Below, in pieces: positions 3,046 through 60,507 of a DNA stretch of 64,000 bases. A program made the translations under genes and the position numbers. The stretch is from the NCBI GenBank assembly GCA_001899235.1, contig MKVR01000013.1:1-64000 (forward strand), given 5' to 3'. The notes below the pieces were generated by a model that worked only from the letters and a program-made list of their open reading frames with translations, had not been told where the DNA came from and made no database searches. Each line of letters starts with the position of its first letter. Position 1 is the first letter of the stretch. The DNA comes from Nitrosospira sp. 56-18. Its GTDB lineage: Bacteria > Pseudomonadota > Gammaproteobacteria > Burkholderiales > Nitrosomonadaceae.

Positions 3046-3158
3046 CCTGAATCCACCGTGTAGCGAACTCATCACATAGGTGAAGGTCGACTACCGAGGA
3101 AAGTCTTTGTGGATCATAGTACTAAACTGGAAATCAGCGGGCAACTGCCGGATTTAGG
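3046..3158 (+). repeat. MITE-like element, short form (copy 1), perfect target duplication
   Basis: A 113-bp element starting CCTGAATCC and ending CCGGATTTAGG, so its ends are inverted repeats. It is flanked on both sides by TTTAA (3041-3045 and 3159-3163), a perfect 5-bp target duplication. The inside matches the right half of the 234-bp copy at 41270: TAGCGAACTC, an imperfect TCA...GGTGA palindrome, AAAGTCTTTGTGGATCATAG and CTAAACTGG. The left internal half is missing. The right-hand target duplication contains the stop codon of the minus-strand gene that ends at 3160. No coding capacity is seen. Confidence 0.85.
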
Positions 3159-13237: not shown

Positions 13238-13350
13238 CCTAAATCCGGAAGTTGTAGCGCTCACTTATAGGTGAACGTCGAGTACCACAGAGAGTCTTTG
13301 TGGATAATGGGTTCTAAACTGGAAATGAGCGGTCGACCACCGGATCCAGG
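13238..13350 (+). repeat. MITE-like element, short form (copy 2)
   Basis: 113 bp, the same length and structure as the copy at 3046. It starts CCTAAATCCGGAAGTTG and ends CCGGATCCAGG. Inside are TAGCGCTCACTTATAGGTGA, AGTCTTTGTGGATAATGG and CTAAACTGGAAATGAGCGGTC. The flanks are ATTAT and ATCAA, so the 5-bp target duplication is degraded or absent. It lies between mlaB and ibaG, genes that usually sit close together in one operon. Confidence 0.8.
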
Positions 13351-40211: not shown

Positions 40212-40832
40212 ATGCTGAGCCTCTACGAAGAATTGAAGATCTGGCAAGGCGCGATTAGCTCGCTTCTTGGCTTTTTGGCGCTGATGGTCGCAGCGCTATG
40301 GAATTTTCACCTAAACCGTAAACGGGATGCGGCACTTCGGTCAGATGAAGCTCTTTCGGTAGCCGCCGCGCTATATGGTGAAATCATGCTCCTTCGCAAG
40401 GAAGCGGCGCAGATAGCTACTACCGTTGCGAAGATGGCAATGAGAGAGACACGGTATGGCAGTTCCTCATACAAAATTGATTCACACTTCCTTGAAGCGA
40501 ACAAGCTGTCGGAACCAATGTTCTATAAAACTTTGGCCCCGCAAATTGGCGTATTGAGTCCTGATCTAGTGATTGCCATCACTGAATTTCATCGCAATTT
40601 TCAGGAAGTAAAAATATCGTTGCCGCTACTCGTTGAAAATAGCGACAGAGGGTACGATTATAGCTGGTCATCAGTTCTTATACCGGCGCGCGATGCCGTC
40701 AAAAATATCATTCCTGCTTCGAGGAAAATCGAGCAACTTACGTCCATTTCCACCCCAATGAAGGATTTGGAGTTAAGAGAAGTCGAAGAAGTTATTGAGT
40801 TTGAGCAGATTCAATATGACAACCGGGGTTGA
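40212..40832 (+). CDS. Hypothetical membrane-anchored protein
   Basis: 206 residues. One N-terminal transmembrane helix (about 13-33, AISSLLGFLALMVAALWNF) is followed by a basic turn (HLNRKRDAALRSDEA) and a mainly helical cytoplasmic part (AALYGEIMLLRKEAAQIATTVAKM...). A GGTGAGG ribosome site lies 9 bases before the ATG. I do not recognise a domain. The base composition is lower in GC than hemF. It sits between the tRNA-Ala gene and a diverged copy of the tRNA's 3' end, so it is probably acquired cargo. Confidence 0.65.
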   Translation: MLSLYEELKIWQGAISSLLGFLALMVAALWNFHLNRKRDAALRSDEALSVAAALYGEIMLLRKEAAQIATTVAKMAMRETRYGSSSYKIDSHFLEANKLSEPMFYKTLAPQIGVLSPDLVIAITEFHRNFQEVKISLPLLVENSDRGYDYSWSSVLIPARDAVKNIIPASRKIEQLTSISTPMKDLELREVEEVIEFEQIQYDNRG

Positions 40833-41051
40833 CTGCAAAGATCTGCGACACATAATCTCTGCTGGCGAGTGCCGATTTAATAGCGATATTCACCCACGTA
40901 AAAGCCGCACCATGACTGGATTCGCCAGCTGGGCACTCAGCCCGCCTTTTTTGGTAGATTTACGAGCTACCGGAAGCATGTGGGGGTATATCTTGGGGTA
41001 TAAAAATAGAGTCAGGCTTGTAGCGCATTATTTGAAGCCATTCTATGATTC

Positions 41052-41071
41052 AGTTCGATCCTTCTTGTCCC
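41052..41071 (+). repeat. tRNA-Ala 3'-end-like direct repeat (possible att site)
   Basis: This 20-bp stretch differs from the tRNA-Ala 3' part at 39882-39901 at 3 positions (AGTTCGATCCTYCTYGTCYC). About 12 bases later a second block TTCCACCA resembles the end of the tRNA, and a terminator follows at 41106. The pattern fits an attR left by an integration that displaced the original tRNA trailer, with the tRNA 3' end at 39882-39906 as the other end. No integrase is present. Confidence 0.45.
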
Positions 41072-41105
41072 AATTGACTGTTCCACCAAGTCCCGAGAAG
41101 TCCCG

Positions 41106-41132
41106 AAAGCCCCACGTCCAGCGGGCTTTTTC
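41106..41132 (+). terminator. Rho-independent terminator
   Basis: A stem AAAGCCC / GGGCTTT with a loop of about 10 bases is followed by a run of T. It would suit the original downstream end of the tRNA-Ala transcript, now about 1.2 kb away. Confidence 0.7.
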
Positions 41133-41178
41133 ATTGATTTTCCATACTGGCGCGTCCGCCTGTTCTATTGAATCCAGT

Positions 41179-41610
41179 GCTCAAAGGTTAGAGAAGTCAG
41201 GCCGGATTGTCAGCTGTGATGTAAAAGGTTTTCCCCTGGATTCCCGGCATCATTGGAGGAAGGAATAAACCTAAATCCGGCAGTTGGACAGGATGGAGTG
41301 TGCGGCTTTCGGCGTGCAGGGCAAGACGCAACAACGCGGAATGGCTATTTCATTCCAAGGAGTTGCAACGCAGCCATTTGCCCCAAAAATCGCGCAATCT
41401 GCCCCGTAGCAAACTCACCATACAGGTGAACATCAAGTACCTCGGAAAGTCTTTGTGGATCATAGTCCTAAACTGGAAATGAGCGGCTACTGCCGGATTT
41501 AGGATAAAGAATGGTTTATTCCACTTCATTCACGTCTATGCGGGCCAGAAACTCATTTTTCTGATTACTTGCTCCCGTTTTGCCGACAGGCTGCAGTCCC
41601 TTGCATCGTT
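41179..41610 (+). repeat. Dispersed repeat unit, copy A, interrupted by a MITE
   Basis: The unit resembles 42584-42771. Shared blocks are CAAAGGTT, GGATTGTC, TTTTCCCCTGGATTCCCGGC, CATCATTGGAGGAAGGAATAAA, then RGATGGTTTATTCCAC and CCCGTTTTGCCGACAGGCTGC. In this copy the MITE at 41270-41503 plus a duplicated ATAAA splits the unit after GGAATAAA. Without the insert the unit is about 190 bp. Its function is unknown; it may be a remnant of a mobile element. Confidence 0.7.
41270..41503 (+). repeat. MITE-like element, long form (copy 3), perfect target duplication and empty site
   Basis: 234 bp. The ends are perfect 15-bp inverted repeats (CCTAAATCCGGCAGT at the left, its complement at the right). 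ATAAA at 41265-41269 and again at 41504-41508 is the target duplication. The paralogous unit at 42584-42771 has only one ATAAA (42669-42673) and no insert, giving an empty-site comparison. The inside has GTTGGACAGGATGG, TTGCAACGCAGCCAT, CCCCAAAAATCGC, a TCACCATACAGGTGA hairpin and CTAAACTGGAAATGAGCGG. No coding capacity is seen, so a transposase must be supplied elsewhere. Confidence 0.92.
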
Positions 41611-41705
41611 TGGCGCCATTTATCTTATGCGGTCTGTATAATAAGCATTCCGCTCTGGCCGGTTATTTTCTTGCTTCTTCTCGCGGATGGTGGAGTAAGT
41701 CACTA

Positions 41706-41981
41706 ATGAATGAACTCACCATTTTTTCCGTATCCATTTATCTCGCACTATCCAGCCCTATGGCCGCACAGTCAGCCGAAAAAGCAATGTATGTGGGCAA
41801 CGGTCGATATGTTGGGGAAGGCAGGTCTGTTGAAGATGCGCAGTTGCGCCAGCGTAGCGGTGAGTATTCAGAACGTGAAAGGGACAGACAGGAAAATGAG
41901 CGACGATATGAACACTCTGAACGTGGGAGCGTGACTATGATTATCGGGATCGGCTTGATGAGCATTAATAACCAAGCCTAG
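41706..41981 (+). CDS. Small secreted protein, function unknown
   Basis: 91 residues. The N-terminus MNELTIFSVSIYLALSSPMAAQSAEKA looks like a signal peptide with cleavage after SPMAAQSA or AQSAEKA. The mature part has YVGNGRYVGEGRSVEDAQLRQRSG, then a highly charged stretch (SERERDRQENERRYEHSERG) and a hydrophobic C-terminus (MIIGIGLMSINNQA). The frame is open back to 41580, but this ATG gives the signal peptide. I do not recognise it. Confidence 0.55.
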   Translation: MNELTIFSVSIYLALSSPMAAQSAEKAMYVGNGRYVGEGRSVEDAQLRQRSGEYSERERDRQENERRYEHSERGSVTMIIGIGLMSINNQA

Positions 41982-42317: not shown

Positions 42318-42924
42318 GACTCTATCCCTGTAGCCACTTCCTTCCAGGGATTCAAACTCACTTCAAGAGAAGTGATCCCATTTGTTTGCATGGCGCGTAT
42401 CGGGTCGTCCTCAACGGTGACAGTTACCGCAGCCTCAAGCCGTTGCCGGAAATACCGAAACCGCGGTTGTCAAACTGCTAAAAATCGCGCATTCTTGACC
42501 CCTGTTCGAGCCCCTGAAATGGACATTCAAAGTACGTCTTTATGCCAAATATCCCCGGCGCCAATATGCCGAACAGTGACACAGGCAAAGGTTAAAGAAG
42601 CCAGGCTGGATTGTCGACTGTGATGTGAAAGATTTTCCCCTGGATTCCCGGCATCATTGGAGGAAGGAATAAAGGATGGTTTATTCCACCTCATTCACGT
42701 TTATGCAGGGCAGAAACTCATTTTTCTGATTACTCGCTCCCGTTTTGCCGACAGGCTGCAACTCCTGCCTCTTTTCTTGCTACTTCCCTCGGGTGGTATG
42801 ACAGGAGTGGTTAGTTATACTGACTGCCTCCATGCCGATTTTGGGAAATCCTACAATAGGATAGACGACTCAACATCATAAAAGCTGTTTGCTATTCTGT
42901 TTGCATTGTGCATATATATAGCAT
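42318..42924. other. Non-coding stretch with a possible gene remnant and the uninterrupted repeat
   Basis: No gene is supported in these 607 bp. Around 42382-42480 a frame reads HGAYRVVLNGDSYRSLKPL and then a stop; the GDSYR part faintly recalls the tail of IS21-type IstB proteins. From 42584 to about 42771 lies copy B of the repeat that is interrupted at 41270. Confidence 0.45.
42584..42771 (+). repeat. Dispersed repeat unit, copy B (uninterrupted)
   Basis: Partner of the unit at 41179-41610. It runs through GGAATAAAGGATGGTTTATTCC without the MITE and so shows the pre-insertion state, with a single ATAAA at 42669-42673. Similarity fades after CCGACAGGCTGCA, although both copies show TTTTCTTGCT further on. 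Confidence 0.75.
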
Positions 42925-44059: not shown

Positions 44060-44670
44060 AGCTGGGTAGCTGAGTACAACTGACCTGCGCTAATGTATAG
44101 CAGTCGCGATCTCATCTGACAGAGTTTCCCGTTTGATAGGTGCAGTTGTCAGATCAGATTCAGCCTGAATCCGGCGGTTGTAGCGAACTCACCATATAGG
44201 TGAACGTCAAAATGAGTGGTCAACTGCCGGACTCCAGGCCTCCTTTGCGCCGTTCAATGTTTGTATAGGCATTCGGCCGCAACCCGTCTTTCCCTGATGG
44301 GTGCGGTCTTGCTCAGTTTCTTTCCACTCGACAACCTGATTGCGGTGCGCTCTCAAATCGCTGTCCCAGTTCGGCCAGAATCTTCTCTCCCGCCAAGGCC
44401 GCTAATGCAACCCGCGCTTTGAACGCCGCTGGGCGCATCCGCCTCGTCATCTATCCCATCTTCCACTCCAAATCAAAGCCCCCGCAGCGAATATTAAAAG
44501 GCGGCAGATCCTCCATTTATCCGGCACATCCAAATTTCCGAGACCAGTTTCATCGACACGCTCAATTGAAAATAAATTAAAGAAAAAGCCTATATTGCCG
44601 TAGATTTTCCTGAGGCAATAGACGCAATGACCAGCCCGAGGCACAGTCGAACGCTATCAAAGGAGGATGA
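44060..44670. other. Non-coding stretch containing a degraded repeat copy
   Basis: Contains the MITE relic at 44164-44238. The remaining roughly 500 bp show no gene or motif I can support; short frames here have no family look. Confidence 0.5.
44164..44238 (+). repeat. MITE-like element, degraded deletion form (copy 4)
   Basis: 75 bp. It starts CCTGAATCCGGCGGTTG and ends CTGCCGGACTCCAGG. It keeps TAGCGAACTCACCATATAGGTGAACGT but lacks about 40 bases that hold the AAAGTCTTTGTGGATC block. The flanks (TTCAG, CCTCC) do not match, so it is old or was changed after insertion. Confidence 0.7.
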
Positions 44671-58712: not shown

Positions 58713-59759
58713 TTGCAAAGTGATCCGGCCACTGCCAGAATTGAGAATCTTACCACCACTCCCAACGTTCCATTGAAATCCAGGCCAGTAGAACTTTCAT
58801 TGACTCCCGTCGATAACCAGCGTCTTGCAAACCTGTGCGGGGTACTGGACGAAAACCTGAGGCAGATAGAAACGGTGCTGGATGTCACCATAGTAAGGCG
58901 AGGAGAGCATTTCAGCTTGCATGGCAAGATTGCCAACGCCTCTCTGGCGGCGGAAACACTGAAGAGCTTTTATGATCAGGCTCAGCATCCGCTGGGCATC
59001 GAGGAAGTTCAATTGGGGCTCATCGAAGCCATGCGGCCTCATTCCGCGAAAGAGGGGGCTCGCCTTGCAGTTCTTCCAGCAGAAGCGGCGCCGCTGCTCA
59101 TCACTCGCCGCAGTGATCTGCGGGGCCGCACGCCGCTGCAAACTCAATATTTGCAGCAGATCCAGACTCACGACATCACATTTGCCGTCGGCCCGGCGGG
59201 CACGGGGAAGACATACCTCGCGGTTGCCAGTGCAGTCGATGCCCTGGAGCGCGACAATGTGGCGCGCATCGTGCTGGTGCGTCCGGCGGTAGAAGCGGGA
59301 GAGCGTCTCGGCTTTCTCCCGGGAGACATGGTGCAGAAAGTGGACCCCTATTTGCGCCCGCTATACGACGCCCTTTACGATTTGATGGGGTTCGATAAAA
59401 CCAGCAAGCAGTTCGAACGCAGCGCGATCGAAATTGCCCCGCTCGCGTTCATGCGCGGCCGCACGCTGAACCAGTCTTTCATTATTCTCGATGAGGCGCA
59501 GAACACCACGCCAGAGCAGATGAAAATGTTCCTCACCCGTATCGGCTTCGGCTCCAAGGCCGTGGTGACAGGCGACATCACCCAGATCGATCTGGCGAAG
59601 CACCAGAAAAGCGGGCTGATAGAAGCCCAGCAGGTGCTGGAAAAAGTGCGTGGCATCGCTTTTACCCACTTCGGCGCGGAGGATGTGGTGCGGCATCCCC
59701 TGGTTCAACGGATTGTCAATGCCTACGAAACGTATGAAAAATCTTCCAGGGGGAATTGA
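58713..59759 (+). CDS. ybeZ: PhoH-family ATPase (YbeZ)
   Basis: 348 residues. The N-terminal KH-like part is followed by the PhoH ATPase core: Walker [15 protein letters not shown] near residue 158, [18 protein letters not shown], and [23 protein letters not shown]. YbeZ works with YbeY in RNA metabolism. No ATG fits; TTG at 58713 gives the longest frame and TTG at 58773 ([12 protein letters not shown]) is nearer the usual start. It overlaps ybeY by 26 bases. Confidence 0.92.
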
Positions 59760-60279
59760 GCCGGCCGGAGAAAGCAACGGCAGCACGGGAGGGGTCGATC
59801 TCAACATACAACGCGCGACCCGCGCCCCTGGCATTCCCTCCAACGAGGAGTTTCGCAAATGGATCGGCGCAGTCCTGCCAAAGGATACAAGGGATGTGGA
59901 AATCGGGTTGCGGATAGTGAACGAATCCGAGGGCCGGCGGCTGAATCGTGAATTTCGCCATAAGGATTACGCGACCAATGTACTGACTTTCGTTTATGAC
60001 GACTCACCGGCCCTGGCTGGCGACATCGTGCTTTGTGCCAGCGTGATAAAAAACGAGGCGGCTCGGCAATGCAAGGATCTTGCCGCACACTATGCTCATC
60101 TTACGATTCATGGGATATTGCATCTTCAAGGTTTTGATCATGACGTCGATGAGAGGGCGGAGGTAATGGAGCGGCTGGAGACGGAGATTCTTGCCAGGCT
60201 GGGGTACAAAAATCCATATGAAACACCGATCTCCACCGCAGATGAGGGTTCTGGCGGGAATGGAGCGTGTCAAGCATGA
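59734..60279 (+). CDS. ybeY: Endoribonuclease/rRNA maturation factor YbeY
   Basis: A 181-residue zinc-dependent endonuclease of 16S rRNA 3' maturation. [16 protein letters not shown] and the zinc motif [12 protein letters not shown] are complete. ATG at 59734 is inside the end of ybeZ, so translation is coupled. The last codon, TGA at 60277-60279, lies within the ATGAT target duplication of the repeat element at 60281, so the element inserted exactly at the gene end. The tail ([14 protein letters not shown]) is slightly extended. Confidence 0.94.
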
Positions 60280-60280
60280 T

Positions 60281-60507
60281 CCTGAATCCGGCAGCCGATC
60301 GCTCCTTTCCAGTTTAGAATTATGATTCATAAAGATTTTTCGCGGTACTCGACATTGACCTGTATGGTGGGTTCGCCACAGGGCGGATTGTGCGATTTTT
60401 GGGGCACATGGCTGCGTTGCAACTTCCTGGAAGCCATTGTGTGTCGTTGCGCCTTGCCCCGCACTCCGGAAACCGTACTTCCATCCTGTCCAACCGCCGG
60501 ATTCAGG
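60281..60507 (-). repeat. MITE-like element, long form (copy 5), perfect target duplication
   Basis: 227 bp in the opposite orientation to the other copies. The plus strand starts CCTGAATCCGGCAG and ends CCGGATTCAGG. ATGAT is duplicated at 60276-60280 and 60508-60512. Read on the minus strand it matches the 41270 copy nearly throughout: GTTGGACAGGATGGAAG, GTTGCAACGCAGCCATG, GCCCCAAAAATCGCAC, CACCATACAGGT, AATTCTAAACTGG. It splits the ybeY-corC operon. Confidence 0.9.

Follow-up and report, generated by a model that had tools for sequence, protein, structure and literature searches.

A 234-bp inverted-repeat element of Nitrosospira belongs to a widespread family of short non-autonomous elements, probably mobilised by IS1380-family transposases

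Abstract

We analysed a 64,000-nucleotide stretch of the genome of Nitrosospira sp. 56-18 (contig MKVR01000013.1; hereinafter the window), which carries at positions 41270–41503 a 234-bp element with terminal inverted repeats. This element is very probably a non-autonomous transposon (MITE), a member of an approximately 236-bp family moved in trans by DDE transposases of the IS1380 family. Its dispersed copies, target-site duplications and unoccupied sites are directly visible, while mobilisation by an IS1380-family transposase is predicted from the matching ends.

An inverted-repeat element and its unoccupied counterpart

The features of the window, scored where applicable with the covariance model R1, are as follows.

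41270–41503, plus strand: full-length element, 234 bp, with perfect 15-bp terminal inverted repeats (R1 217 bits, E 1e-65)
41270–41284, plus strand: left terminal inverted repeat, CCTAAATCCGGCAGT
41489–41503, minus strand: right terminal inverted repeat, CCTAAATCCGGCAGT
41265–41269: target-site duplication ATAAA, left copy
41504–41508: target-site duplication ATAAA, right copy
41288–41407, plus strand: long hairpin arm with the apical hairpin GGAATG..CATTCC, from single folds and conserved pairs (R1 matches the other strand too)
42586–42760, plus strand: paralogous empty site, with a single target ATAAA at 42669–42673
60281–60507, minus strand: second long copy, 227 bp, target-site duplication ATGAT (read on the plus strand), 1 nt past the stop of the ORF 59650–60279
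3046–3158, plus strand: short form, 113 bp, target-site duplication TTTAA (R1 E 3.6e-15)
13238–13350, plus strand, strand uncertain: short form, 113 bp, flanks ATTAT/ATCAA (3 of 5 positions alike); R1 matches both strands, with E 4.8e-14 on plus and 4.7e-8 on minus
44164–44238, plus strand: 75-bp remnant (R1 E 7.7e-10), one end of which fits the end pattern with 0 mismatches

The two 15-nt arms are 100% complementary and are bordered by the ATAAA duplication, as the original prediction had described. Its paralogous unit with the same flanks and no insert is likewise borne out: the 88 nt on the left and the 92 nt on the right of the empty site are 92% and 93% identical to the flanks of the element, and the junction reads GGAATAAAGGATGG with one ATAAA. 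No ORF of at least 100 aa overlaps the element. Its small size (<500 bp) and terminal inverted repeats, combined with the target-site duplications and many dispersed copies of the family, and with unoccupied sites both at the paralogue and at the 60281–60507 locus in relatives, support its identification as a MITE. The duplicated flank unit (41182–41595 and 42586–42760) also forms a small repeat of its own; among 23 genomes searched it occurs in the own genome (G000) alone, with a third partial copy at G000:C18:41329-41407.

The four other copies claimed for the window were all recovered, comprising one long copy, two short forms and one remnant, the last with no target-site duplication seen at 44164–44238. 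The 113-bp short form is made up of the two ends of the long form together with its right part. Sites fitting the end pattern with up to three mismatches number 23 in the window against 6.74 expected, a count reached by 0 of 100 shuffles, and ends with up to two mismatches number 224 in the whole genome against 19 for a reversed control; chance is thus excluded. From the latter figures we estimate about 100 elements in the 3.29-Mb genome. In the BLAST search of this genome, in which 40 matches were scored among 134 candidates, the copies other than the query itself are 75–91% identical to the 234-bp query. Twenty places with unpaired perfect ends, chosen among 100 listed of the 224, comprise short forms, decayed partners and ends beside other repeats, and no insertion sequence was recognised in them. 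No paired perfect ends 1–3 kb apart were noticed by eye in 18 genomes of the genus, 9 of which had matches.

Across the family, the duplication is 5 bp in length, as had been proposed: it is perfect in 65 of 127 copies and matches at four of five positions in 38 more, as against 0 and 2 of the 127 for control flanks taken 20 bp further out. The target pattern WTNAW fits 208 of the 254 flanks, while the flanks of the own copies alone give TTNAA/ATNAT. A total of 105 of the 127 copies are 234–238 bp long, and three pairs among the 127 share a site. These 127 are R1 matches, namely 73 of 111 from 71 sources and 54 of 80 from 80 sources, with partial and contig-end matches, other-strand arm matches, the short forms of the window, three known duplicates and five weaker full-model matches (L175, the second of L189, L192, L193 and L201) set aside.

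Comparison of occupied and empty sites, which had been suggested as a check, points the same way as the empty paralogue in the window. Of the 22 other genomes of the genus, all but G002, which gave no flank locus, could be compared, and in all 21 the two genes bordering the 60281–60507 copy lie closer together, by 174–300 bp. In 9 of these 21 the gap is shorter by 226–237 bp; the flanks are too diverged for reading the exact empty target. At the other extreme, one old insertion is common to G001, G022 and G015, with the flanks of the first two identical at 60 of 60 bases, indicating that some copies are fixed. Unconserved ends, or occupation of the same places in distant relatives with no empty sites, had been named as observations that would speak against a mobile element; for the family, we instead find conserved ends and sites that differ between genomes.

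Transposases with matching ends

Among 399 genomes of the order, four carry the pattern CCTRAATCCGGCRGTTG: the own genome and G016, both of the genus g1, and G186 and G058 with one match each. The match in G058 (locus L085) belongs to a 1476-bp element with one end reading CCTAAATCCGGCAGTTG and a broken IS1380-like gene, a fragment of which matches the NCBIfam IS1380 model (NF033539) with E 5.6e-6. A tblastn search with one open frame recovered an intact relative on a plasmid of Polaromonas sp. P1-6 (CP087967.1): a 510-aa IS1380 gene between the ends CCTATTTTCGGCAGT and CCTAGAAACGGCAGT, with the target-site duplication TTAAA. Its product (P0001) scores 86.5 bits with PF13701 (cut-off 34.7) and matches NF033539 with E 1.6e-45, though at 155.5 of the 180 bits of the NCBIfam cut-off. 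A 234-bp member of the family, with the ends CCTAGAAACGGCAGT and CCTAGAAACAGCAGT, lies 357 bp downstream. On the same plasmid record, an annotated hypothetical protein (L100:559-738) falls almost wholly inside the element copy (L100 501–734) and is probably not a gene.

With the Polaromonas protein as query, 15 of the 399 genomes of the order match at E<=1e-20. One of these, G092 from another genus of the order, has three open IS1380 copies that are 89% identical to the query (three scored of 30 candidates). Two of the copies were resolved as 1639-bp elements with the ends CCTATTTCCGGCAGTTGAC and CCTAAATCCGGCAGTTACC and flanks alike at four of five positions. One of the two ends of these elements contains CCTAAATCCGGCAGT, and thus the 15-base end of the window element also occurs as the end of an IS1380 element. 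Just one of the two ends of the IS1380 copies equals the MITE end exactly, while the general grammar of the ends is the same in both (the CCT-box-AGTT type). The 5-bp flanks of the IS1380 elements examined are also WTNAW-like (TTAAT/TTAAT, TTAAA/TTAAA, TTCAA/TTCAT and TTAAA/ATAAA).

The original prediction had looked to many copies plus a transposase with matching ends for support. Both exist, but the gene is in another genus (G092), and none was found here, in keeping with its statement that the window holds no such transposase. The Polaromonas query gives 0 matches at E<=1e-20 in the own genome, where a copy may have been missed since the assembly is in 54 contigs. No intact transposase with the MITE ends was found in the own genome or in the 22 genus relatives, of which the P0001 search covered G016 alone; hence, the claim of mobility is limited to the family rather than extended to the present host. 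PF13701 matches in the own genome are below the cut-off only and have stops inside. Among them is a degraded IS1380-like remnant with several stops at G000:C50:69319-69839 (L048, L056), around which no matching ends were seen. A related but degraded transposase gene in G003 lacks MITE-like ends.

Selecting a candidate transposase by protein family alone was less successful: PF13701 returned few IS1380 genes in 41 genomes, and the intact one, in G016, has the ends CCCAGATTTTCCAT. That element falls in a second IS1380 subgroup (L042:27-1518 in G016 and L160:1231-2723 in G093), with ends CCCAGATTTTCCAT or CCCAGATTTCCCAT unlike those of the MITE and with the duplications TTAAT and ATTAA. In G068, an IS1380 remnant has the ends CCTATTTTCCTCAG and CCTAAATTCCTCTG, which are not those of a MITE resident there, so that box matching inside one genome rests on the Polaromonas plasmid.

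Spread across the order and lineage-specific end boxes

BLAST detected the family in 19 of 41 genomes with the own genome included, namely 17 of the 23 of genus g1 (with no match in G003, G007, G008, G012, G016 and G017) plus G035 and G038 of other families. The covariance model reaches considerably further, with matches in 121 of 399 genomes of the order at E<=0.001, the copy counts being lower bounds as five candidates were scored per genome. At E<=1e-20, it recovers 53 genomes from 24 genera and 17 families of the order. In a sample of 398 genomes of the phylum, 17 match at E<=1e-10, the best outside the order at 1e-14; matches with E between 1e-4 and 1e-19, including all those outside the order, were not taken as members. 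The exact core pattern occurs in at least 119 stretches of named genomes. Those among the 80 listed come from Nitrosospira, Nitrosovibrio, Nitrosomonas, Gallionella, Sulfuricella, Sulfurimicrobium, Propionivibrio and Hydrogenophilales, along with vaguely named bins, one "Bordetella parapertussis" bin and two Methylococcaceae bins. R1 gives 80 matches at E<=1e-15 over these 80 sources, some of which have none. The names of metagenome bins, especially the last three groups, may reflect errors of binning or labelling. Searches of phage and plasmid records gave no match with the window element and two plasmid records with the Polaromonas copy.

In most copies the boxes at the two ends are almost identical, but the box is lineage-specific (AAATCCGGC, AGAAACCTC, AGAAACGGC, AGAAACCGC, TGATTCCCC and others), while the CCT before it and the AGTTG after it are mostly constant across lineages. 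We infer that the end boxes follow the resident transposase, a relationship seen directly on the Polaromonas plasmid only and which the one G068 remnant does not fit. In size, the departures from the norm include longer copies of 365–378 bp in genus g1, with a perfect target-site duplication in four and a four-of-five match in one. In the long forms at L106:154-531, L107:177-552, L110:138-515 and L120:127-491, the apical loop holds a GC-rich, self-complementary module of 145 bp, and pieces like this module are also present at the own-genome loci L065, L066, L070 and L078. In six copies of 263–371 bp belonging to other lineages, the apical loop is of the usual kind.

Interior fold and orientation

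The interior of the element is unlike a transposase gene reduced in size; comparison of the copies shows a conserved fold. It comprises an 18-bp end stem, the long arm with the apical hairpin, and a small TCACC/GGTGA hairpin; conservation between lineages is lowest in the right part, where a minus-strand ATG lies. Length and layout are unchanged in the Polaromonas and Caballeronia copies, whose hairpin sequence is different. In an alignment of 21 sequences, 94.3% of the 1293 cells of 62 pairs are paired as compared to 33–40% in slid controls; the fold was taken from one of the 21 sequences and then trimmed to the alignment, a procedure that in itself pushes the paired percentage up. Both sides have changed in 25 of the 62 pairs against 9.8 (sd 2.1) in shuffles, a count that kinship among the 21 sequences can inflate. 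Such changes between genera include GGAATG/CATTCC, GTGGGC/GCCCAC and GGCGCA/TGCGC.

In the window copy, folding exceeds that of shuffles on both strands (z -3.6 on plus and -4.5 on minus), the minus strand being slightly more stable, while the Polaromonas copy gives z -10.2 on plus and -6.2 on minus. Among 57 hand-chosen copies, it is the plus strand that folds better in 53: in 20 of 23 own copies, in 19 of 20 obtained independently of R1 and in all 14 that R1 recovered. Against 20 dinucleotide shuffles each, the mean z in these three groups is -5.5, -9.0 and -11.0. The ratio of G-U to A-C in the arm is 39:43 in own copies, 32:23 in relatives found without the model and 49:14, an ascertainment-biased figure, in the model-found copies. 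Rfam 15 gave 0 matches at E<=1 in the window at 41200–41600, and a known RNA family was also rejected for the Polaromonas copy, whose single match (E 0.27, 20.3 bits) falls below the gathering score of 73.

With respect to genes, 58 of 79 classified contexts are tandem pairs (35 of 50 and 23 of 29 in two sets) and 5 of 79 are convergent, contexts being taken from crude ORF calls (>=100 aa) with no genome baseline. In the tandem pairs, the element is antisense by 28:7 and 18:5, i.e., in 46 of 58 (46 versus 12), with a two-sided binomial p of 8e-6 if sites are taken as independent. The first set holds 55 copies (22 own, 8 from relatives and 25 model-found) of which 5 are unclassified, the second 50 model-matched copies of which 21 are unclassified; both window copies (41270 and 60281) lie outside these counts. 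Of the two, the 60281–60507 copy is antisense to its neighbouring ORFs, while the 41270–41503 copy runs against the trend, being co-directional with the ORFs 40795–41268 and 41580–41981 if these are genes. A Caballeronia copy sits between two convergent genes. Some gene ends abut the element, with 6 of 25 distances equal to 0 or 1; as both TAA and TGA stops fit within WTNAW, insertion there could leave a stop in place.

A model for the family and its alternatives

We envisage that the transposase would bind the CCT-box-AGTT ends and excise the element, which would then be joined to a staggered cut at WTNAW. The family is most likely old, having spread by descent as well as by transfer from genus to genus, and the boxes at its ends may have followed whichever IS1380 transposase was at hand. 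Insertions placing the plus strand in operon mRNA would mostly have been lost, such that the surviving copies in tandem pairs are antisense. Taken together, this amounts to a single old structured mobile element with a folded body of near-fixed length (about 236 bp) in at least 17 families of one order, changing mainly its short CCT-box ends to suit successive IS1380 transposases, with its fold selected for propagation and its insertion filtered by the direction of transcription. We advance this broader picture tentatively, as a possibility that falls well short of the confidence we attach to the MITE identity and the IS1380 link.

Two alternatives concern the role of the fold. The complementarity might simply be that of a palindromic MITE under no selection for folding, with pairs surviving via a few recent masters per lineage; in the arm of own copies decay favours neither strand, and related sequences can inflate pair counts. 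We consider this rather doubtful, as stems have changed on both sides between genera with pairing and length kept, and the slid controls pair far fewer cells than the alignment. Conversely, the fold could be cargo, a structured RNA or RNA gene spreading on IS1380 ends and acting on the host or the transposase, with selection on the RNA keeping the structure. The compensatory changes between genera, the near-constant length and the plus strand that is the better folded in most copies and beats dinucleotide shuffles would all suit such an RNA. Yet no Rfam family matches, the plus strand in operon copies is mostly antisense to the genes, and in the arm of own copies G-U is no commoner than A-C, which is what free decay after insertion would give; accordingly, we view the cargo reading as unlikely.

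The tandem contexts with their biased orientation, albeit from crude ORFs and with no baseline, and the Caballeronia copy between convergent genes might also suggest a regulatory or terminator cassette maintained by the host in operons. That is very unlikely given the few convergent contexts, the divergence and decay of the own copies and the lack of the 60281 copy at its place in all 21 relatives compared. Finally, the original inference of mobility is supported. The paralogous pair alone fits precise loss too, as two copies by themselves cannot separate insertion from loss, and precise loss at the 42586 unit itself is possible. As an account of an immobile sequence, in which the two window units differ by precise loss of the insert from one, it has next to no probability, being refuted for the family by the 65 perfect target-site duplications and those same relatives; the family does insert.

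Significance and relation to known elements

MITEs, IS1380 elements and folded MITE transcripts are already known (PMC10969869). No literature on this particular family was found, as judged by titles and the beginnings of abstracts, though a Polaromonas JS666 MITE cited in that review could belong to it. Relative to the earlier reading of the window, the new points are the link to IS1380, the target consensus WTNAW, the conservation of the fold, the occurrence in many families of the order and the bias in orientation. MITEs are commonly regarded as the lineage-specific debris of one insertion sequence, and here one body plan extends across many families. The combination of a constant body with lineage-specific end boxes allows questions to be asked about selection on the interior of MITEs and about change of transposase. 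The orientation bias is testable for effects on operon transcription, and the R1 model can be used to annotate a repeat present in many genomes of ammonia and iron oxidisers.

Insertion sequences of the IS1380 family are exemplified by ISEcp1. The present family resembles them in ends that begin with CCT or CCC, in 5-bp A/T-rich duplications (TTAAT, TTAAA) and in the CCTAAATCCGGCAGT end in G092. In contrast, the window element lacks a transposase gene and measures 234 bp as opposed to about 1480–1640 bp, and when set against the terminal 300 bp of each of two IS1380 elements, resemblance at E below 0.01 is confined to the ends. Tn3-derived TIMEs share 5-bp duplications and have Tn3 ends, whereas the ends here are IS1380-like. 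Correia elements have another end sequence and a TA target; an assignment to them was rejected as the ends here are CCTAAATCCGGCAGT and the target is 5 bp. Unlike in Correia elements, both the length and a covarying interior are kept here across the families of an order. The family nonetheless shares general features with bacterial MITEs such as Correia which, according to PMC10969869, are <500 bp in length with inverted ends, a target-site duplication, many intergenic copies and transcripts predicted to fold. The same review cites a MITE of Polaromonas sp. JS666 (Mattes et al. 2008), which comes from the same genus as the plasmid carrying a member of our family and could belong to that family.
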